20,455 nt of DNA from Proteiniphilum sp. (GTDB taxonomy: Bacteria; Bacteroidota; Bacteroidia; Bacteroidales; Dysgonomonadaceae), in NCBI GenBank assembly GCA_031284475.1, contig JAISZV010000138.1:1-20455 (forward strand), in the 5' to 3' direction. Positions 9,146-17,282 of the stretch are shown piece by piece. Position 1 is the stretch's first letter, and each line of letters opens with the position of its first letter. Position numbers and translations under genes: made by a program. The notes beneath the pieces were generated by a model. It saw only the letters and a list, made by a program, of their open reading frames with translations, did not search any database and was not told the DNA's origin.

Positions 9146-9904
9146 TCAAAACTCCAAATAGGGTTCAAGGCGGAGGACATCTTCCGGAGTAAACTCATCA
9201 AGCAGGGAGAGTTCACGGATAGAGGTAATATCTCCTTTTCTGCGGCGAAGCCCCATGATAGCCTGCACCTGTTTGTAATTCAAATACGGATGGCGCAACA
9301 ACTCCCCGAACTCCGATCTATTGACCTGTATCCTGCGGAAATTGCCGTCGGACTCAATATAAACAACAATACGGGAGAAAAGTTCCTGATCAATACCATA
9401 TACCTCCAACAGTTGTTCAACCGCTACAAAACCGCCCAACAGGTCGCGGTACTTCACAATACGGGAAGCATAAGCGCTGCCGACGCCGGGGATTTTCTTC
9501 CACTGGGCCGTATCGGCCTCGTTCAGGGAGATGGTCTCCCCCTCGGAGAGTTTTTCTGTGGCCGGATAGAAAGCATGGGAGGAAGACCCGCCCCCGCTCT
9601 GTGGAACATACCGTTCAGCGTAACGGGAAGCGCTTTCATGCGAAGAACCGCTCCGGCCCGGCGACTGCTCCACGGAACCCTTTCCCTTTTCCGAAGCGAC
9701 AACGGACGGCTCTCTCACCGTTAGTGTCCGGCGAAATTCCGCAAATTCCCGAACCAGCGAATCGTTCTGCATCAGGACAACATCCGACGAGTTTTTGTAC
9801 CTGAGAAGTGCATTCAAAATAAGGGTCAACACAATAAGGATGAGCAATAGAATTACCGCCGTCCTTGAGCCTTTTTGAAAATATAAAAAATCTTTCCAAC
9901 GCAT
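9146..9904 (-). CDS. Membrane-anchored helix-hairpin-helix (ComEA-like) protein
   Basis: This 252-residue protein has one N-terminal transmembrane segment (about 15-35, AVILLLILIVLTLILNALL). A low-complexity, Ser/Gly-rich linker (about 70-120) follows. Next come two helix-hairpin-helix units: IPGVGSAYASRIVKYRDLLG followed by GFVAVEQLLEVYGI, and the region around NYKQVQAIMGLRRRKGDITS. Such motifs contact DNA backbone non-specifically, and ComEA-type proteins bind DNA outside the inner membrane; small HhH anchors of this kind are common in Bacteroidetes. The ATG at 9902-9904 is the natural start. It lies 150 bp upstream of the macroglobulin gene on the same strand. Its promoter box TAACTTTG (9970-9963) sits at the edge of a 123-bp repeated element. 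A DNA-uptake role is conceivable, but no other competence gene is visible. Confidence 0.82.
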   Translation of the reverse strand: MRWKDFLYFQKGSRTAVILLLILIVLTLILNALLRYKNSSDVVLMQNDSLVREFAEFRRTLTVREPSVVASEKGKGSVEQSPGRSGSSHESASRYAERYVPQSGGGSSSHAFYPATEKLSEGETISLNEADTAQWKKIPGVGSAYASRIVKYRDLLGGFVAVEQLLEVYGIDQELFSRIVVYIESDGNFRRIQVNRSEFGELLRHPYLNYKQVQAIMGLRRRKGDITSIRELSLLDEFTPEDVLRLEPYLEF

Positions 9905-9962: not shown

Positions 9963-9970
9963 CAAAGTTA
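9963..9970 (-). promoter_or_regulatory. -7 promoter box of the HhH protein gene
   Basis: The minus strand reads TAACTTTG, a perfect TAnnTTTG match, about 59 nt upstream of the ATG at 9904. The -33 region is not convincing here: the TTTG found at the equivalent place in copy B is TATG in this copy. Confidence 0.55.
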
Positions 9971-10085
9971 GCATAAAATACTCAATTACACACATACGAA
10001 TAAAAATGGTTTGCAAAATTTATAGGGGAAAAGTACATGAAAATCTTACGGTTTCCAAACACGCGCAGATGAAAAAAGTTTTTTG
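9963..10085 (-). repeat. 123-bp conserved element, copy A, upstream of the HhH gene
   Basis: This sequence matches the reverse complement of 15267-15389 at 115 of 123 positions with no gaps. Similarity stops abruptly at both ends. Read on the minus strand it runs toward the HhH gene and ends precisely with the promoter -7 box TAACTTTG (9970-9963), about 59 nt before that ATG. Copy B has the same relationship to mnmG. On the plus strand a short frame crosses the element, but six of the eight differences between copies change the amino acid, so it does not behave like a protein gene. There are no obvious terminal inverted repeats or target duplications. It is best read as a dispersed upstream regulatory module of unknown function. 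Confidence 0.75.
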
Positions 10086-10117
10086 TTGTATTTCAAATCA
10101 ACAAAATACTGCTCCCA

Positions 10118-10151
10118 TTTGGGGTAGTTTTAAATACAATCACTACGTTTG
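10118..10151 (+). promoter_or_regulatory. Promoter upstream of the ATPase pseudogene
   Basis: TTTG (10118-10121) and TACGTTTG (10144-10151) form a Bacteroidetes-type promoter with a 22-bp spacer, slightly longer than ideal. The broken ATPase reading frame begins 27 nt downstream at 10178. This favours that ATG over the in-frame GTG at 10151, which lies inside the -7 box. Confidence 0.5.
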
Positions 10152-10177
10152 TGCAAAATAGAAATCTTATTTATGAT

Positions 10178-10557
10178 ATGCACAAACTTGTTGATAGAAA
10201 TATAGAAGCGTTTGTAACAGAGAATCTAAACATATTTCCTGCAGTTGCCGTTTTGGGGCCGAGACAATGCGGAAAGTCTACTTTGGTAAAAATGCTCTAT
10301 CAAAATTCGGAAACCTGCCTGTATTTAGACCTTCAGAATTTGGATGACCTTAATAAGTTGAGAGGGGCACGCGTACGATAGCCGTAGAATGTAAGGCCTC
10401 ATCGGCGCCACAGGTAACCAAAGGTTTTTGGAGCGCCATAGAAACCACGAAACCGGATAAAACATATATCGTTGCCCCCGTATCAGCATCTTATCTGTTT
10501 AAAAAGGACGTGGAAGTTTGCGGATTGAGCGATTTTTTGAAAAAAGTGGAACTGTAA
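10178..10557 (+). pseudogene. DUF4143-type P-loop ATPase, internally deleted and frameshifted
   Basis: Two parts of one gene remain in different frames. The N-terminal part (10178-about 10370) encodes MHKLVDRNIEAFV, then a Walker A motif GPRQCGKST and the strand CLYLDLQNLDDLNKL, the usual opening of ATPases with an AAA_14 domain followed by DUF4143. It then closes at TAG (10379-10381). From about 10364 another frame reads IAVECKASSAPQVTKGFW, then KTYIVAPV and VEVCGLSDFLKKVEL, ending at TAA (10555-10557). This is the nuclease-like C-terminal end of the same family. Full-length members are about 380-400 residues, so roughly 250-280 residues are missing between the parts. The gene was evidently inactivated by a deletion near 10350-10375. 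The original function of such ATPases is poorly known; they are mobile and frequently pseudogenised in Bacteroidetes. Confidence 0.8.
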
Positions 10558-10574
10558 ATATGCTCTGTTTTAAT

Positions 10575-10937
10575 TTAAAAATCATCGTTACAGCCATATA
10601 TGTATCCGAAAGCTCCGCTAAATAAACTCCAATACATTGACTTTCGCACATCATCATCGTAGAATCTCCCGTTTTCTTCTTTGAAGTATTTAGGAATATC
10701 TTCATATCTTGGTTCCGAATCCATGCACGGTTTTACAGGCACTTTATTATAATCGGCAACGATGAGCCGCTTTACTATTTCGAATGTAGCCTGCATATAC
10801 CCTCTCTGACAGATATTGAAATCCTGCCGTTCGCTTTTGTGAAACCATTGAGATGAGGAAGCCTCTCCCGATGGATGATATGTCATCAGATGGTTTTTGT
10901 CTTCTTTTTCTTGAAAATCCGATTGAAATTTGAAAAG
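10575..10937 (-). pseudogene. Remnant of a DUF4038/GH140-like glycoside hydrolase
   Basis: The frame contains KNHLMTYHPSGEASSSQWFH, then IVADYNKVPVKPCMDSEPRYED and YWSLFSGAFGYIYGCND. This matches the order and spacing of the catalytic barrel of apiosidase-like DUF4038 (GH140) enzymes, including the conserved PVKPxxDxEPRYE segment near the catalytic glutamate. Only about 100-120 residues remain of a domain normally more than 300 long. Upstream the frame is closed by TAA at 10938-10940 with no start in front of the conserved part. Downstream it stops just after GCND, where intact homologues continue. It is truncated at both ends and converges on the ATPase remnant. I infer the debris of a lost polysaccharide-utilisation gene. 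Confidence 0.68.
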
Positions 10938-11256
10938 TTATTAATCCACATAAGTTATGTATGCTATGCGTTGTAGAGACGAGCATGCGGATAGCATCTC
11001 CTAACCTTATATCATTTCAATGAGTATATAAAAGTTTGTCCTGTGCGCCGTTTAAGAAATCTACTAAAGGTTACTTCGTTCATCCTTACCGGATTTGCGG
11101 CATCAGAAAGCATGTCGTTTAGTTAAGGAAATTCTTACGATCTTTTGAAAAAGGTTTGAAATTATATTGTTTTCTTTCTTAAAAATAGTCATAAATTGTA
11201 TCTTTGGCGAATCTTTGTCCGTTATATATCCGTCTAATCGCAAATTTCCGCAAGAT
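10938..11256 (+). promoter_or_regulatory. Intergenic region with -7 box of the SpmA-SpmB gene
   Basis: No gene is seen in these 319 bp. A clear -7 box TATCTTTG lies at 11199-11206, with the ATG of the gate-domain protein 51 nt downstream at 11257. A matching -33 TTTG at the right distance is not evident. The left part probably consists of further decayed sequence next to the GH140 remnant. Confidence 0.45.
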
Positions 11257-12489
11257 ATGGTATTGAATTACATTTGGATTGCTTTTTTTCTGATCGCTTT
11301 CGCAGTGGCTTTGGTAAAGCTCATTTTCTTTGGAGACGTAAACGTCTTTACCGAGATCATGAATTCTACCTATACGTCGGCCAAAACCGGTTTTGAAATC
11401 TCGCTGGGATTAACGGGAGTGCTTTCTCTATGGCTCGGTATAATGAAGATAGGCGAACGGGGAGGAATGGTGGAGCTTTTTTCCAGGGCTGTCACCCCTC
11501 TTTTTTCCAGGCTCTTTCCCGGTATACCCAAGAATCACTCCGCCTCCGGTTCGATCCTGATGAACATATCGGCCAATATGCTGGGGCTCGATAATGCGGC
11601 CACCCCTTTCGGCTTGAAAGCGATGCAGGAGTTGCAGGAGATCAACCCGAAGAAAGAGTCGGCCTCCGATTCCATGATCATGTTCCTGGTACTGAATGCA
11701 TCGGGACTGACGCTGATTCCGGTCACCATCATGGTGTATCGCGCACAGTTAGGCGCGGCCAACCCTGCCGACGTATTTATCCCGATCATGATCGCTACCT
11801 TTGCCGCTACCTTAGTCGGCATGATTGCCATCTGCCTGAAACAGCGCATCAACATCTTCAACAAGGCGATCATGGGCTTTCTTTTGGTTATGGCGGGCAT
11901 TATAGGCGGTACAACGGTTCTTTTCCGGTCAATGCCCCAGGAGCAGATCAATATTGTTTCCGGTCTTGCCGCAAACATCTTTCTTTTCTCCATTATCGTG
12001 CTTTTCATTGTAAAGGCGCTACGCCGAAGGATCAATATCTTCGACACATTTATCGATGGCGCGAAGGAGGGATTTAAAACTGCCGTGACCATCATTCCTT
12101 TCCTTATCGCCATACTGGTAGGCATTGGCGTTTTCCGCGCTTCCGGGGCGATGGATTTCCTGATGGAAGGGCTACGGGATGCGGTGGCGCTGACAGGTTT
12201 GGACACCCGGTGGGTGGACGGTATGCCCACGGCGCTGATGAAACCGTTGAGCGGTAGCGGCGCCAGAGGAATGATGATCGACGCCATGCAGACTTTCGGG
12301 GCCGATTCATTCGCCGGCAGATTGTCGGCCGTATTTCAGGGTGCAACCGACACTACTTTCTATATTGTGGCGGTTTATTATGGAGCCGTGAACATCAAAA
12401 ATTCGCGCTACACCGTTCCCTATGCGCTTTTGGCCGATCTGGCAGGTATTATTGCCGCTATTTTTGTGGCCTACCTCTTTTTCGGATAA
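11257..12489 (+). CDS. Fused SpmA-SpmB nucleoside-recognition (Gate) membrane protein
   Basis: This 410-residue polytopic membrane protein combines the two spore-maturation subunits SpmA and SpmB in one chain, as in non-sporulating Bacteroidetes. The first Gate domain covers roughly 40-200 and includes MLGLDNAATPFGLKAMQELQ, the SpmA signature. The second covers about 250-410 and includes MPTALMKPLSGSGARGMMID and VFQGATDTTFYIVAVYYG, the SpmB signature. Gate domains also occur in nucleoside transporters and FeoB, but the substrate of this family is unknown. The start is ATG 11257 (MVLNYIWIAFFLIAF), which begins the first membrane helix. An earlier frame start at 11167 would place the promoter box inside the gene. 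The stop is 38 nt before ybeY, which suggests co-transcription. No defect is visible. Confidence 0.88.
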   Translation: MVLNYIWIAFFLIAFAVALVKLIFFGDVNVFTEIMNSTYTSAKTGFEISLGLTGVLSLWLGIMKIGERGGMVELFSRAVTPLFSRLFPGIPKNHSASGSILMNISANMLGLDNAATPFGLKAMQELQEINPKKESASDSMIMFLVLNASGLTLIPVTIMVYRAQLGAANPADVFIPIMIATFAATLVGMIAICLKQRINIFNKAIMGFLLVMAGIIGGTTVLFRSMPQEQINIVSGLAANIFLFSIIVLFIVKALRRRINIFDTFIDGAKEGFKTAVTIIPFLIAILVGIGVFRASGAMDFLMEGLRDAVALTGLDTRWVDGMPTALMKPLSGSGARGMMIDAMQTFGADSFAGRLSAVFQGATDTTFYIVAVYYGAVNIKNSRYTVPYALLADLAGIIAAIFVAYLFFG

Positions 12490-12527
12490 AAAATAAAGGA
12501 TTCTCCGGGTAAATAAATGTAAATAAA

Positions 12528-12950
12528 ATGGCTATCACTTTTGACGCTGAAAATATCGACTTCCCGAAAATCAAAAAAAGGGCGACGGCAAACTGGATAA
12601 AATCCGTCGCGGAAAATTACGGTAAGCAAACGGGCGATATTTCATACCTTTTTTGTACCGACGAAAAAATTCTGGAGGTCAACCGGCAATACCTGCAACA
12701 TGATTTTTATACCGATATTATTACCTTCGATTATTCCGAAGGCGACCGTATTTCGGGAGATATTTTTATCAGTCTCGATACGGTATTGTCAAATTCAATT
12801 CGATATGATACCGGTTTCACGGAGGAGTTGTACCGGGTGATTATTCACGGCGTCCTCCATTTGTGCGGGATCAATGATAAGTCGGAGGCCGAAGCCGAAG
12901 AGATGCGCAAGGCTGAGGAGGCCGCGCTGGCAATGCGGGGAAGCATGTAA
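12528..12950 (+). CDS. ybeY: YbeY endoribonuclease / rRNA maturation factor
   Basis: YbeY is a metal-dependent RNase involved in 16S rRNA 3'-end maturation and ribosome quality control. This 140-residue protein has the family core YTDIITFDY (61-69), SGDIFIS (76-82) and the metal site HGVLHLCGIND (107-117). His107 and His111 are present. The position of the usual third histidine (GYDH in many species) is Asp117, a substitution I believe is common in Bacteroidetes. The gene follows the SpmA-SpmB protein by 38 bp. Its 3' end is unusual: the final Met140 and TAA lie within sequence that, read on the other strand, belongs to a truncated dinD-like gene. The original YbeY C-terminus was therefore probably replaced at a rearrangement junction near 12941. 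Only the non-conserved tail is affected, so the enzyme is probably functional. Confidence 0.92.
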   Translation: MAITFDAENIDFPKIKKRATANWIKSVAENYGKQTGDISYLFCTDEKILEVNRQYLQHDFYTDIITFDYSEGDRISGDIFISLDTVLSNSIRYDTGFTEELYRVIIHGVLHLCGINDKSEAEAEEMRKAEEAALAMRGSM

Positions 12951-13207
12951 TCTTCAACTTCACGCTTTGCGCCGCTACCGAGTTCGACCATTTTCGTGAC
13001 CTCACGAAAATGGTCATCCATATTGATACCCTGTGTTTTACAAGATTCAACCGCGCGTTGTATGGCCACAAGGAAATTTTCCCAACGGGCATATCCCAAC
13101 ACGGCTTGCAGTTCTCTTGCAAACCAAACTTCTACCTGTTCTTTCTGCTCGTTTTCAATATGTTGTACAATAGCATCAAACAAAGGTTTGTATTGAGTGA
13201 TTTTAAG
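12941..13207 (-). pseudogene. dinD-like (DNA-damage-inducible protein D) N-terminal remnant
   Basis: Read on the minus strand this encodes ITQYKPLFDAIVQHIE, then EVWFARELQAVLGYARWENF, a stretch from ESCKTQ, and DDHFREVTKMVELGSGAKRE followed by VEDYML. This is the N-terminal third of DinD-like proteins, which normally continue with S/T-RYACYLIAQNGDP and reach about 280 residues. Here homology ends abruptly at the ybeY stop codon (12948-12950). No ATG or GTG precedes the conserved part. The only in-frame start is a TTG at 13183 inside it, and the frame is closed upstream at 13229-13231. The gene is broken at both ends. It appears to have arrived by a rearrangement that cut it against ybeY. Confidence 0.75.
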
Positions 13208-13242
13208 TTTATCTATATTTCTTACTCTTTATTTTCTATTGT

Positions 13243-13267
13243 TTTGTGCCACGTGTTGTGGCACAAA
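13243..13267. repeat. Perfect 10-bp inverted repeat (hairpin or operator)
   Basis: TTTGTGCCAC (13243-13252) and GTGGCACAAA (13258-13267) are perfect inverted arms around a 5-nt spacer. The site lies 18 bp beyond the outer-membrane gene's stop and about 35 bp upstream of the dinD remnant. Neither strand has a T-run directly after the stem, so an intrinsic terminator is not well supported. A dimeric repressor operator left over from the dinD promoter is the alternative. Confidence 0.5.
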
Positions 13268-13285
13268 TGACCGGTTTCAGCTCGG

Positions 13286-14098
13286 CTAAAAACAGAAATC
13301 AATAGCGGCGGAAAGCCCTATTCTACTAATTTTTCTGGAGAGATCTCTATTTTCATACTGTTCATTTATAATATTATAATACCTCATTTCAGACAATGAG
13401 GCATAGAGGCCATTGGTTTGTACGCTTATCCCCGCAAAAGGCGCGATCTCATAACGGATCGCCGCCGACAAGGTAAAACCAACTGTAACACCCTTTTGGT
13501 CGGATACCGTTTCATAATATTGCTCATATATTGTGTCATCAATCAAATCCAAACCGCCTGGAATGATTCCATTGCGTCCGGCTTTTATTGTTATTATTTT
13601 CCTATTTATTCCTAACAAATTATTGTGCAGGACAACCACCCCCGCATTAGCCAGAATCATCCATTTTGAATTGCCCAAAGGCCATCTTGTATAAACTGCG
13701 GGGCCAAACAGATGAGTTTTTTCATTAAAAGCGAGAATCGTTGATTCATACGTATAACTCATTTCGTCTATAAGGTCAAGAGAAGATTCTTTTTTATAAT
13801 CTGATGTGTAAAAACCATATTTTATGCCGACGCCATAGTTTTTCGAGAAAAACCAGGCGGCGTCAAACCCCGGGGAGAATCCTCTTTTGGTGGCAGGAAG
13901 GACAAGATTATAACCTGGTTCGGTCATCATCCCCGTATAACCTAAATCGGTACTCGACGACCCCAATGCGAAATCCCAACCGGCGTTCACAGACAGGTAG
14001 AACTTCGGGTATTCCGGTACATTGTTATCGGATTGTCCGTATGCAGAAAAGGTAAGAATCATACAGACTGTTGCGAAGAAAAATTGTTTCATATTCAT
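13286..14098 (-). CDS. Outer-membrane beta-barrel protein, function unknown
   Basis: This 270-residue protein has an N-terminal signal peptide (core FFFATVCMILTF, cleavage expected after SAYGQ near residue 22). Alternating hydrophobic and aromatic strands follow, such as KFYLSVNAGWDFALG, YGVGIKYGFYTS and GVTVGFTLSAAIRYEIAPF, and it ends in AAIDFCF with the terminal Phe typical of barrels. About eight to ten strands could form a small barrel. I recognise no specific family. ATG codons at 14098 and 14092 are both possible starts (MNMKQ or MKQ); the first is given. It is transcribed toward the dinD remnant. Its 5' side faces a 195-bp region that leads to the AGTAGCTACT palindrome array, so regulation by that array is possible but unproven. 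Confidence 0.75.
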   Translation of the reverse strand: MNMKQFFFATVCMILTFSAYGQSDNNVPEYPKFYLSVNAGWDFALGSSSTDLGYTGMMTEPGYNLVLPATKRGFSPGFDAAWFFSKNYGVGIKYGFYTSDYKKESSLDLIDEMSYTYESTILAFNEKTHLFGPAVYTRWPLGNSKWMILANAGVVVLHNNLLGINRKIITIKAGRNGIIPGGLDLIDDTIYEQYYETVSDQKGVTVGFTLSAAIRYEIAPFAGISVQTNGLYASLSEMRYYNIINEQYENRDLSRKISRIGLSAAIDFCF

Positions 14099-14293
14099 TA
14101 TCAAAGATTTTTAAGATTGTTTTCCTATATGAGAACTTGTTTAAATTTATAGAACGTGGATTATCACTCTTATTTTTCACCCGTTTCCGGCAAGAAAAAA
14201 TTTATCAAAGTAGATTCATTTTTTATTACTCAATTAGAAAAGCGCCCTGCCTGGCGCAGGCTCTTCTCAATGACTGTCCACTAAATAAAAAAT

Positions 14294-14392
14294 GAGTAAC
14301 TACTCCTTTGCAATTTAGTAGCTACTAAAATAAAATGAGTAGCTACTCGTTCGCAATTTAGTAGCTACTAAATTTTGAATAAGTAGCTACTA
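14294..14392. repeat. Phased array of AGTAGCTACT palindromes
   Basis: Five cores occur at 14295-14304 (degenerate, AGTAACTACT), 14316-14325, 14338-14347, 14359-14368 and 14382-14391. The start-to-start spacing is 21, 22, 21 and 23 bp, about two helical turns. Copies 2 and 4 lie in a perfect 16-bp palindrome TTTAGTAGCTACTAAA. Copy 3 lies in GAGTAGCTACTC. Identical flanks AATTTAGTAGCTACTAAA show a partly duplicated ~43-bp unit. The array lies between the 3' end of the HU-like gene (ends 14409) and the 5' end of the outer-membrane gene (starts 14098). It looks like a multi-site binding array or iterons on one DNA face. Since each copy can pair with any other, RNA hairpins are also possible. Confidence 0.8.
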
Positions 14393-14408
14393 AATTTTGA
14401 ACGCTTGC

Positions 14409-14792
14409 CTATACTTTTGTAAATTTCGCCGCATCGCGCATTTCACGCAACCTTTTGCCGGGCGTAAAAATAAAGCCCATTTTCTTGACCGACGCCGCAG
14501 TTACCTCTTCGGCTCTATCTTTGCCCTCGCTGCTGATAGTGACACGCAAACTGCCCAAATCGCCCAAACGGACGATTCTTCCATCAGACAAACCTGCTAC
14601 GGCTTCCTCTACCATTGCATAAAGTACGGCCCGGATGTCCGCGCCATTCACCGTACTGATTTTTTCGATGGCTTTTGTCAGGCTGTCGAGGCTTACTTCC
14701 CTGTCATGCACCGGGCTGGCGTAAAATTTCTTCACTCCGCCACCCGCTACTCCCGGTTGCGGACGTTTTACTACTTTAATTCGTATTGCCAT
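14409..14792 (-). CDS. HU/IHF-like DNA-binding protein (Bacteroidetes long form)
   Basis: This 127-residue protein belongs to the HU/IHF (DNABII) superfamily in the longer form common in Bacteroidetes. Its N-terminal extension includes IRIKVVKRPQPGVAGGGVKKFYASP (read in two parts around residues 4-28). The HU helices come next (SLDSLTKAIEKIS, then ADIRAVLYAMVEEAVAGLSD). The body strands RIVRLGDLGSLRVTISSEGK follow, with a beta-arm region around EEVTAASVKKMGFIFTPGKR. Such proteins bend DNA and organise the nucleoid or specialised loci, and several copies per genome are usual. The ATG at 14792 starts MAIRIK. Immediately past its stop lies the AGTAGCTACT array, so an architectural partner for that site is conceivable. 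No clear TAnnTTTG promoter is seen upstream. Confidence 0.88.
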   Translation of the reverse strand: MAIRIKVVKRPQPGVAGGGVKKFYASPVHDREVSLDSLTKAIEKISTVNGADIRAVLYAMVEEAVAGLSDGRIVRLGDLGSLRVTISSEGKDRAEEVTAASVKKMGFIFTPGKRLREMRDAAKFTKV

Positions 14793-14983
14793 AATTTAGC
14801 TGTTTTATGTCCTGATTGGGACGGTTTATACTATGGTTAATTGTTTTGTTGTTCTATTTAACTTAAAAACCCACCTGTTATGCAAGGGAGTAATGCAATT
14901 CAGGCTTTGCCTTTAGCATATTAAGAATTTTCGGTGGCGCAACCATGGCCCGTCAACCGCCTGAAAAAAATTCTCATAAACAA

Positions 14984-15083
14984 AAAACCGGCTTTCTACC
15001 GTAATCCGGCACAAACCCTGACAGGGGAAATGCTCCACGCCGCCAGGACAAAACCGGCCCTTTATCGTAATCCAACACAAACC
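14984..15083. repeat. Two 34-bp direct repeats with 66-bp period
   Basis: Positions 14984-15017 and 15050-15083 both begin AAAACCGGC and end CACAAACC, with CGTAATCC in between. They match at 28 of 34 positions and all six differences are transitions. On the minus strand they lie in the 5' region of the HU-like gene, so a regulatory role for that gene is possible. Alternatively they are the remains of a tandem repeat. Confidence 0.5.
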
Positions 15084-15195
15084 ACAAATATACGGTTAAA
15101 TCCGAGAATTTGTCATCAAAAAAAATCCTTTTTTTATTATTTTTTTTCGGTCGTCCTTTTTTTTGCTAATTATTGCCATTTGCCCTAACGCCCCC

Positions 15196-15237
15196 ACAAT
15201 GCTTTGTTTAGTTGATAAATATTTAACGAAGCATTGT
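15196..15237. repeat. 13-bp imperfect inverted repeat (hairpin)
   Basis: ACAATGCTTTGTT (15196-15208) can pair with AACGAAGCATTGT (15225-15237) through 13 base pairs, one of them a T-G wobble, around a 16-nt loop. Six T's follow at 15245-15250 on the plus strand, so it resembles a terminator. However, no plus-strand gene lies upstream to be terminated. It borders the 123-bp element copy B. Confidence 0.4.
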
Positions 15238-15266
15238 TATGCGGTTTTTTAGTATCTTTTCCTCTG

Positions 15267-15389
15267 CAAAAAACTTTTTTCATCTGCGCGCGCTTGGAAA
15301 CCGTAAGATTTTCATGTACTTTTCCCCTAAAAATTTTGCAAATCATTTTTATCCGTTTGTGTGTAATTGAGGATTTCATGCTAACTTTG
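15267..15389 (+). repeat. 123-bp conserved element, copy B, upstream of mnmG
   Basis: This is the reverse complement of 9963-10085 with eight substitutions and no indels. It starts CAAAAAACTTTTTTC, contains the longest identical stretch (TTGGAAACCGTAAG through TTTTCCCCTA, about 36 nt), and ends with the promoter box TAACTTTG (15382-15389), 18 nt before the mnmG ATG. It lies mainly upstream of the predicted transcription start, so it should act as DNA rather than as an RNA leader, unless it is transcribed from the other strand. The identical placement relative to two unrelated genes is the main evidence for a regulatory function. Confidence 0.75.
15356..15389 (+). promoter_or_regulatory. Promoter of the mnmG-apt-uvrC-dtd block
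   Basis: The -7 box TAACTTTG (15382-15389) is a perfect TAnnTTTG match, with TTTG (15356-15359) 22 bp upstream as a possible -33 element. Transcription would start near 15395, giving a leader of only about 13 nt before the mnmG ATG at 15408. Confidence 0.6.
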
Positions 15390-15407: not shown

Positions 15408-17282
15408 ATGACTTTCAACTACGACGTCATAGTGGTGGGCGCGGGGCACGCCGGATGCGAAGCGGCCGCGGCCGCGGCCAATCTGGGATCAAAAACGCTG
15501 CTGATCACGATGGACATGAACAAGATTGCCCAAATGAGTTGCAATCCTGCCGTAGGCGGCATTGCAAAGGGGCAGATTGTGCGTGAAATTGATGCATTGG
15601 GCGGACAGATGGGAATTGTGAGCGATAAGACTGCCATTCAATTCCGCATGTTGAACCGCTCGAAAGGGCCGGCCATGTGGAGCCCCCGCGTACAGAGCGA
15701 CCGGATGAAGTTCATCGGGACATGGCGCGAAATTATCGAAAACACGCCCAACCTGGATATGTGGCAGGATATGGTAACCGGACTCATCTGCAAAAACGCA
15801 GTAATCACCGGCGTAAAAACCGGTATGGGCGTAGAATTTTTCTCCAAAGCGGTGATCCTTACAAACGGCACGTTCCTGAACGGACTGATCCACATAGGCA
15901 AGGTACAGATCGGCGGAGGGCGCATCTCCGAACCGGCTTCTCTCGGAATGACGGAGCAGTTGCGCGATCTGGGATTCAGCGCCGACCGGATGAAAACAGG
16001 CACTCCGGTGCGTATCGACGCGAGAACGGTCGATTTTTCCCAACTGGAAGAACAGAAAGGGGATGAAGATTTTCACAAATTCTCCTACCTCCCGGAAGTG
16101 CGACGAACGCTAAAACAAAAAAGCTGCTGGATAGCATATACCTCCGGGGAGGTGCATGAGGCCGTACGCGAGGGGCTTCACGATTCCCCGCTCTATAACG
16201 GACAAATACAAAGTATCGGGCCGCGCTATTGCCCCAGTATAGAGACCAAGATCGTCACTTTCTCCGAAAAGACAAGCCACCAGTTATTTCTGGAACCGGA
16301 AGGAGAAACAACCCACGAATATTATCTCAACGGCTTCTCCTCTTCCCTCCCCTTACAGACGCAATTGAACGCTTTACAACGCATACCGGCTTTCAGGAAT
16401 GTACATATTTTCCGTCCGGGTTACGCCATAGAATACGATTTTTTCGACCCGCGCCAACTGCATCCGACATTAGAAGCAAAGCAGGTAAAGAACCTCTTTT
16501 TTGCGGGGCAGATCAACGGTACTACGGGTTATGAAGAGGCGGCGGGACAAGGGCTGATAGCCGGCATCAACGCGCATATCAACTGCCACGGGGGCGATCC
16601 TTTTGTTTTACGCCGGGATGAAGCCTATATAGGCGTGCTGATCGACGACCTGATCACCAAAGGGGTAGATGAACCCTACCGGATGTTTACCTCCCGCGCC
16701 GAATACCGCATTCTTCTCCGTCAGGACAACGCCGACGAAAGGCTCACAAAAAAAGCGCATGAAATAGGATTGGCAACCAACGAGAGGCTGGAACTGCTTC
16801 ACCGGAAAGAGGAAAAAACAGCGCAAATCATCGATTTCGTGCGCAATTTTTCCATCAAAGCAGACCGCATCAATCCGTTTCTGGAACATATCGGAACAGC
16901 GCCGTTAAAGCATGGGGTAAAGCTGTATGATCTGCTTACAAGACCCCACATAGACCTGTTGTTGACGTCGCAGGAGGTCGCCCCGCTCAAAGAACTGTTA
17001 GAAACCATCGGCGAACGTAAAGAGGAAATCATTGAATCAGCCGATATACAAATAAAATACGACGGTTATATCAAACGCGAACGCACCATGGCCGACAAGA
17101 TTACCCGCCTGGAAGATATCCGCATCAAAGACAAATTCAACTATAACGAAATACAATCACTCTCAACAGAAGCAAGGCAAAAACTAACGAAGATCAACCC
17201 AGAAACCATCGCGCAAGCAAGCAGAATACCGGGCGTTTCGCCCAACGACGTCTCCGTTTTACTTGTACTGTTAGGGCGTTAA
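15408..17282 (+). CDS. mnmG: tRNA uridine-5-carboxymethylaminomethyl modification enzyme MnmG (GidA)
   Basis: MnmG works with MnmE to install the carboxymethylaminomethyl group on wobble U34 of certain tRNAs, using FAD and a folate one-carbon unit. The protein is 624 residues, the usual length. The start ATG 15408 gives MTFNYDVIVVGAGHAG, placing the FAD-binding GAGHAG at residues 11-16. The frame stays open to 15234, but that extension would run through the promoter and the repeat element. Other family signatures are SCNPAVGGIAKGQIVREIDA, RMLNRSKGPAMWSPRVQSDR, GGGRISEPASLG and NGTTGYEEAAGQGLIAGINA. The C-terminal helical domain ends SRIPGVSPNDVSVLLVLLGR and binds MnmE and tRNA. It leads a five-gene co-directional block. 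No defects are seen. Confidence 0.97.
   Translation: MTFNYDVIVVGAGHAGCEAAAAAANLGSKTLLITMDMNKIAQMSCNPAVGGIAKGQIVREIDALGGQMGIVSDKTAIQFRMLNRSKGPAMWSPRVQSDRMKFIGTWREIIENTPNLDMWQDMVTGLICKNAVITGVKTGMGVEFFSKAVILTNGTFLNGLIHIGKVQIGGGRISEPASLGMTEQLRDLGFSADRMKTGTPVRIDARTVDFSQLEEQKGDEDFHKFSYLPEVRRTLKQKSCWIAYTSGEVHEAVREGLHDSPLYNGQIQSIGPRYCPSIETKIVTFSEKTSHQLFLEPEGETTHEYYLNGFSSSLPLQTQLNALQRIPAFRNVHIFRPGYAIEYDFFDPRQLHPTLEAKQVKNLFFAGQINGTTGYEEAAGQGLIAGINAHINCHGGDPFVLRRDEAYIGVLIDDLITKGVDEPYRMFTSRAEYRILLRQDNADERLTKKAHEIGLATNERLELLHRKEEKTAQIIDFVRNFSIKADRINPFLEHIGTAPLKHGVKLYDLLTRPHIDLLLTSQEVAPLKELLETIGERKEEIIESADIQIKYDGYIKRERTMADKITRLEDIRIKDKFNYNEIQSLSTEARQKLTKINPETIAQASRIPGVSPNDVSVLLVLLGR

Follow-up and report, generated by a model that had tools for sequence, protein, structure and literature searches.

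Why does one 20,455-nt stretch of Proteiniphilum DNA, here called the window, carry the same 123-bp sequence twice, each time ending at a promoter -7 box ahead of a different gene? By direct alignment, the reverse complement of positions 9963-10085 matched 15267-15389 at 115 of 123 positions without gaps, with a longest identical block of 36 nt (TTGGAAACCGTAAGATTTTCATGTACTTTTCCCCTA), and TAACTTTG formed the terminal -7 box of both copies, as the earlier note had described. Judged by position, that note was also right that the conserved part is promoter-upstream DNA rather than an mRNA leader. Its claim of sharp borders held in part: the DNA flanking the pair is unrelated on either side, but the left border is not the true edge, because other copies extend further left to CCTCTG, directly 3' of a TAnCTTT box. 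At mnmG the insert thus covers 15261-15389 and follows an old -7 box at 15253-15260, whereas copy 1 (9963-10085) and a few others have no left box edge. Midway along the 123-mer lies another -7 box, TACTTTTC, which is present because the sequence is a tandem of two separate units, A and B, each also found alone (Table 1). This internal box, the A/B composition, the left-hand box and the IS110 origin described below are features beyond the earlier note.

Table 1. Features of the two 123-bp copies and their downstream genes (window positions)
Feature	Positions	Strand	Basis
TATCTTTT, old native mnmG -7 box, now the left edge of the insert	15253..15260	+	alignment, mnmG sites of relatives
Unit A: CCTCTG left end, A/T tract, TTGG (15294-15297), 19-bp spacer	15261..15316	+	copy comparison, model R1
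TACTTTTC, -7 box of A, junction common to A and B	15317..15324	+	solo A copies stop here
Unit B: CCCTAAAAATTTTG... to ...GGATTTCATGC	15325..15381	+	copy comparison, B models
TAACTTTG, new -7 box brought by the right end of B	15382..15389	+	alignment
mnmG, start codon 18 bases past the TAACTTTG box	15408..17282	+	
Copy 1, unit A minus left edge	10036..10085	-	alignment
Copy 1, TACTTTTC box joining A to B	10028..10035	-	alignment
Copy 1, unit B, more diverged than other B copies	9971..10027	-	alignment
Copy 1, TAACTTTG box	9963..9970	-	alignment
HhH protein gene, 252 aa, downstream of copy 1	9146..9904	-	

Three readings of the pair had been offered: a small RNA read from the opposite strand, a dispersed regulatory module or a mobile promoter cassette. 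The small RNA is unsupported, with no Rfam match in the window at the gathering score; the 10 weak matches below that score between 9900 and 15500 were taken as chance. Other repeats occur in the window, including nested inverted repeats around GTAGCTACT at 14284-14398 (arms of 25-43 nt; sub-threshold Rfam matches only) and AT-rich direct and inverted repeats at 738-1004, one of which is a 43-nt inverted repeat spanning 836-921. By eye, the start of an ATP-binding protein gene (GPRQCGKST) at ~10180-10500 stops early and is followed by sequence resembling a later domain, so that the gene looks internally deleted.

Searching the 363 contigs of the same assembly (78% complete) with a 141-bp query returned 19 places at E ≤ 1 and 14 at E < 1e-6, query included. 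This is a repeat family far beyond chance, so the pair is not a single two-copy duplication. Units A and B occur together at five places (L001-L005), A alone at five (L008-L012) and B alone at two (L006, L007), while L013 and L014 carry a partial B or a relative; L010 and L012, both near contig ends and with similar flanks, may be one locus. Measured from -7 box to -7 box, A is 63-64 bp long and B 65 bp. Unit A contains TTGG, 19 bp and TACTTTTS; to its left a TAnCTTT box appears again, with unrelated DNA beyond it. Both array orders exist, A-B in this genome and B-A at L161 and L402, and the units have therefore inserted at each other's -7 box. The spacer of the A core also holds an inverted repeat, TTGGAAAW-N6-WTTTTCA, between -33 and -7, which is perhaps an operator or part of an IS end; the A/T palindrome of A may represent two sub-terminal IS repeats joined together.

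Comparison with relatives revealed what the units had interrupted. At all four testable genes (mnmG, sufB, a radical-SAM gene and a sugar-phosphate-isomerase-like gene), empty sites were found in relatives, and the inserts sit exactly at the native -7 box. The empty mnmG site reads TTTTTTAGTATCTTTG ahead of a short leader in 20 of the 28 relatives having upstream sequence; in the window, the filled site reads TTTTTTAGTATCTTT, A+B, TAACTTTG and then the leader CTCTTTCAAAA. For sufB, an empty site of GATGAAAAAGCAGTATCTTTG followed by TACAACAAAAGC compares with a filled site of GGTGAAAAAACGCTATCTTT, A+B and CGCAACAAAAGC, and for the radical-SAM gene AATGATATGAATTGTTTATCTTTG followed by CTTTATAAATAA compares with AATGATATGAATTGTCTACCTTT, A+B and CTTTATAAATAA. 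The isomerase-like gene received A alone (empty CTTAATAAAAACAGTATCTTTG, filled CTTAATAAAAATAGTATCTTT followed by A), and its leaders are only roughly alike. When 400 bp upstream of each gene was scanned by model, A or B was found in 0 of 28 (mnmG), 0 of 29 (sufB), 0 of 28 (radical-SAM) and 0 of 24 (isomerase-like) relatives; among the genomes scanned, only this one had a unit at these genes. The same scan found no unit upstream of the HhH gene of copy 1 in 29 relatives, where upstream DNA was too diverged to align, and the gene behind a solo B had no homologue among the other 38 genomes of the genus.

A further empty/filled pair came from G059, in which one contig reads ATACACGCAAATACGCTATCTTTG and TGCACGTCAAGGCCACA without interruption and another has unit A inserted between them (64 bp from box to box, with TATCTTT on its left and GTGCACG on its right). 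The left flanks of the two sites agree at 57 of 59 bases; the right flanks agree over the first 18 bases and diverge after that (29/40). Insertion took place at TATCTTTG; read on the opposite strand, the interrupted DNA is the beginning of a gene for an IS110-type transposase. With unit A lying inside a transposase gene, target choice therefore follows sequence and not promoter function. Across the four genes and this pair, insertion was sequence-specific around a short core, TAnCTTTG in every case. Separately, an A copy in another genome (L084) has the left flank of L410 and also interrupts the beginning of a gene for an IS110-type transposase.

Left edges were also examined in bulk, using the 64 of 214 distinct A copies with a recognisable left end and leaving out the remaining 150 (IS ends, truncated or decayed copies). 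The box-to-box length was 63-66 bp in 57 of the 64. Directly 5' of the left end, TAnnTT was found in 41 copies and TAnCTT in 34, compared with 3.9% and 0.4% of control windows, respectively. Taken together, the sequences ahead of the left boxes had no clear -33 (TTG) peak, so it is the ortholog comparisons that identify the left flank as a native promoter.

Such regular edges bear on the idea that short-homology template switching or gene conversion at -7 boxes spread promoter DNA from locus to locus without a recombinase. Both edges are -7 boxes and hence offer microhomology, there is no close transposase in the same genome, and core copies are slightly more alike within (0.862) than between (0.829) three genomes. 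We nonetheless consider this route highly improbable given the defined left end CCTCTG, the constant length and ends that are the same in kind as those of complete IS110 elements.

The A core extends well beyond this genome. Its pattern matched at least 119 stretches in genome contigs, and the 80 titled matches among those listed were all named Bacteroidales or Bacteroidia, with hosts including Dysgonomonadaceae, Proteiniphilum, Petrimonas, Seramator, Tannerella, Prevotellaceae and Symbiothrix. Using a sequence-only model of the core, we detected it in 28 of the 39 congeneric genomes (E ≤ 0.1; 0 to 23 matches each) and 1 to 112 times per genome (E ≤ 0.01) in 24 genomes selected for already having A core pattern matches; because about 150 candidates were scored per genome, the high counts may be too low. 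Plasmid and phage collections contained no match to the repeat at E ≤ 1e-5, and viral contigs none to the A core pattern.

Most sampled copies lie just upstream of an ORF, which answers the concern that copies might mainly fall away from promoters. Among the matches listed, an ORF starts within 350 bp of the A core in 110 of 119, at a median of 31 bp past the box; clustering the proteins of these 110 downstream ORFs yielded just 9 clusters with more than one member. In four termite-gut or related genomes, 27 of 31 copies with enough sequence had an ATG-started ORF within 150 bp, compared with 64 of 165 positions chosen at random and 11 of 24 controls read leftward. By eye, A copies at L137, L126 and L039 precede a tRNA-like sequence and FMN/TPP riboswitch-like leaders.

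This proximity to start codons, together with a promoter-like core (TTGG, 19 bp, TAnnTTTG), could point to a regulon, in which selection through one transcription or sigma factor maintains an extended promoter, TTGGAAAW-N6-WTTTTCATG-TAnnTTTG, ahead of many genes, with no mobility. A regulatory palindrome would likewise predict the complementarity of the spacer pair -24/-17 of the A core, seen in 93 of 118 copies where shuffling expects 52 (uncorrected for relatedness). As the sole cause, however, a regulon is opposed by the precise empty/filled pairs, the near-identity across ~130 bp ahead of unrelated genes, the insertion within a transposase gene and the ends common to IS110 elements, and we regard it as highly improbable. 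Since the copies mostly precede genes that differ from one another, and one of them interrupts a transposase gene, the dispersed regulatory module is not needed, and the mobile promoter cassette was the right option of the three proposed, based on the empty and filled sites and the transposase-gene insertion. A regulatory role on top of mobility, such as a palindrome-bound factor, may form an added layer.

The units of the window carry no gene of their own, and their ends point to a parent. Seven different sites combine an IS110-type transposase with an A core that points away from it, ~96-126 bp from the transposase start. Complete elements sharing the ends of A are L458 from Seramator thermalis (1,627 bp) and L087 (1,602 bp), in which the left end is TATCTTT followed by CCTCTATAAATC (CCTCT) and the right end is TTCATGTAATTTTG (the A core). 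Both encode transposases with PF01548 (DEDD) and PF02371 (Transposase_20) domains; L459 keeps these ends in a deletion form of 609 bp. In L043 and similar copies in the genus, CCTCTTAAAAACCTTGATTTTTATTTTATGCGCTTGG is the IS left end joined directly to the IS right end. A third complete element, L452 (1,703 bp), begins with TATCTTT followed by CTTCTATAAATT and has a transposase 41% identical to that of L087; its transposase and that of L458 match NF033542. A narrow B model missed the end of L452, and a broader model derived from 11 B-like ends recovered it (E = 1.3e-5 over 11 loci); this end agrees with the right end of B at 37 of 46 bases ungapped, where shuffles reached at most 28 (n = 40). 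B therefore points to a second IS110 lineage. Thus A shares both ends with a complete IS110 element, and B shares the right end by model and the left by eye only. Another IS110 relative, L451 in G002 (49% identical), apparently has distinct ends at TAnnTTT boxes and is perhaps a third family.

The parent itself is often missing: at E ≤ 1e-20 no close IS110 transposase turned up in the window's own assembly (78% complete), and of 24 genomes carrying A copies only 3 gave a match at E ≤ 1e-50. Repeats often drop out of such assemblies. The IS110 right end contains a conserved block that includes AGARGAAA, as the IS end does; when right-end blocks were compared with the own end in four elements, one of four was significant (p = 0.176, 0.014, 0.666 and 0.54), and the fold of a candidate bridge RNA gave no signal in the two elements considered (z = 0.2 and 1.0).

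These ends also bear on whether the cassettes were moved by a CTnDOT-type tyrosine recombinase. The CTnDOT core sequence is GTAnnTTTGC, which resembles the -7 box, a resemblance of the core alone. A literature search on this link found nothing, a tyrosine-recombinase motif was present in 0 of 138 loci (a crude motif and a weak test), and IS110 ends explain both edges; such a recombinase is in our view a very remote prospect.

We conclude that A and B are very probably minimal, non-autonomous IS110-family derivatives that are targeted to the -7 box and carry a predicted outward promoter, a reading built on the repeat family, the exact native -7-box position, the transposase-gene insertion and the IS110-shared ends. 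They would be two different IS110-family elements reduced to little beyond their two ends and, like their full-length relatives, would insert by site-specific recombination at TAnCTTTG, here a promoter -7 box. Insertion would split the host promoter within the box, leaving the old upstream DNA and a copy of the box at the left edge, while the right edge would supply a new predicted promoter (in A, TTGG, 19 bp and TAnnTTTG) fused to the leader that the host gene already had. The fresh -7 box at the end of every unit would offer the next one a landing site, which would account for arrays in the order A-B or B-A. For 64-bp units, mobilization in trans by an IS110 recombinase and its bridge RNA would be plausible. 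A double-stranded circle of 64 bp is stiff, which counts against mobile units, and the A+B pair bears ends of two different IS types, which counts against simple joint spread.

The consulted parts of two papers on IS621 (PMC11208160, PMC11208158) describe circular excision with a promoter arising at the end junction, specific targets with a core dinucleotide in which T almost always occupies the second position, and recombination for which a 22-bp donor suffices when bridge RNA is supplied in trans. With NT as the core, the boxes would place it at positions 4-5 of TATCTTTG. As far as those parts describe the IS110 family (IS110 and IS1111 groups, IS621), the relatives found here share its PF01548 plus PF02371 transposase, the lack of long terminal inverted repeats, short-core sequence-specific insertion and promoter sequence at the end junction. 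Unlike the described elements, our units are 63-65 bp long and transposase-free, their target is a promoter -7 box, and the predicted promoter on the LE side points outward. A limited literature search found no report of -7-box targeting by IS110 and nothing on IS110 with MITEs and promoters in Bacteroidetes.

MITEs are likewise small, non-autonomous elements with the ends of an autonomous IS; in the portion of the Coxiella study consulted, a MITE is the target into which IS1111 inserts and not a derivative of it, whereas A and B are IS110 derivatives (PMC5896051). A and B differ from MITEs in having neither terminal inverted repeats nor target duplication beyond the box. Classification as a classical MITE was rejected, as the CCTCTG and TAnnTTTG ends are not inverted repeats and only the box recurs at both edges. 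IS elements with outward or fusion promoters, as covered in the part of PMC9330008 consulted, resemble A and B in that an IS end can drive a neighbouring gene; in A and B, by contrast, recombination falls in the -7 box itself, so the host gene retains its leader and spacing. A further precedent is the putative mobile promoter (Matus-Garcia et al. 2012, as cited in PMC8049555), which the excerpt consulted describes as homologous promoters ahead of unrelated genes in one genome. Our genome likewise has homologous promoter DNA upstream of non-homologous genes, and here, unlike in that excerpt, the sequences reveal which IS is the probable parent, what is targeted and exactly where the junctions lie.

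The family, very probably one of minimal IS110-derived mobile promoters inserting at the -7 box, is real and widespread. More tentatively, and with somewhat less than even confidence, we propose that an IS110 lineage uses the -7 box as the core of RNA-guided recombination, that the same recombinase and bridge RNA move ~64-bp end-only passengers in trans, and that in some Bacteroidales the resulting promoter swaps have placed dozens of genes per genome under new control. If so, each insertion would exchange promoters, with the host promoter reading the element and the element promoter reading the host gene, which predicts one-step promoter swaps at housekeeping genes. Mobile promoters would thereby gain a concrete parent (the IS110 family), a target (the -7 box) and a route of replacement that keeps the host leader, and these natural 64-bp substrates would offer a way to gauge how little DNA an RNA-guided IS110 recombinase needs.
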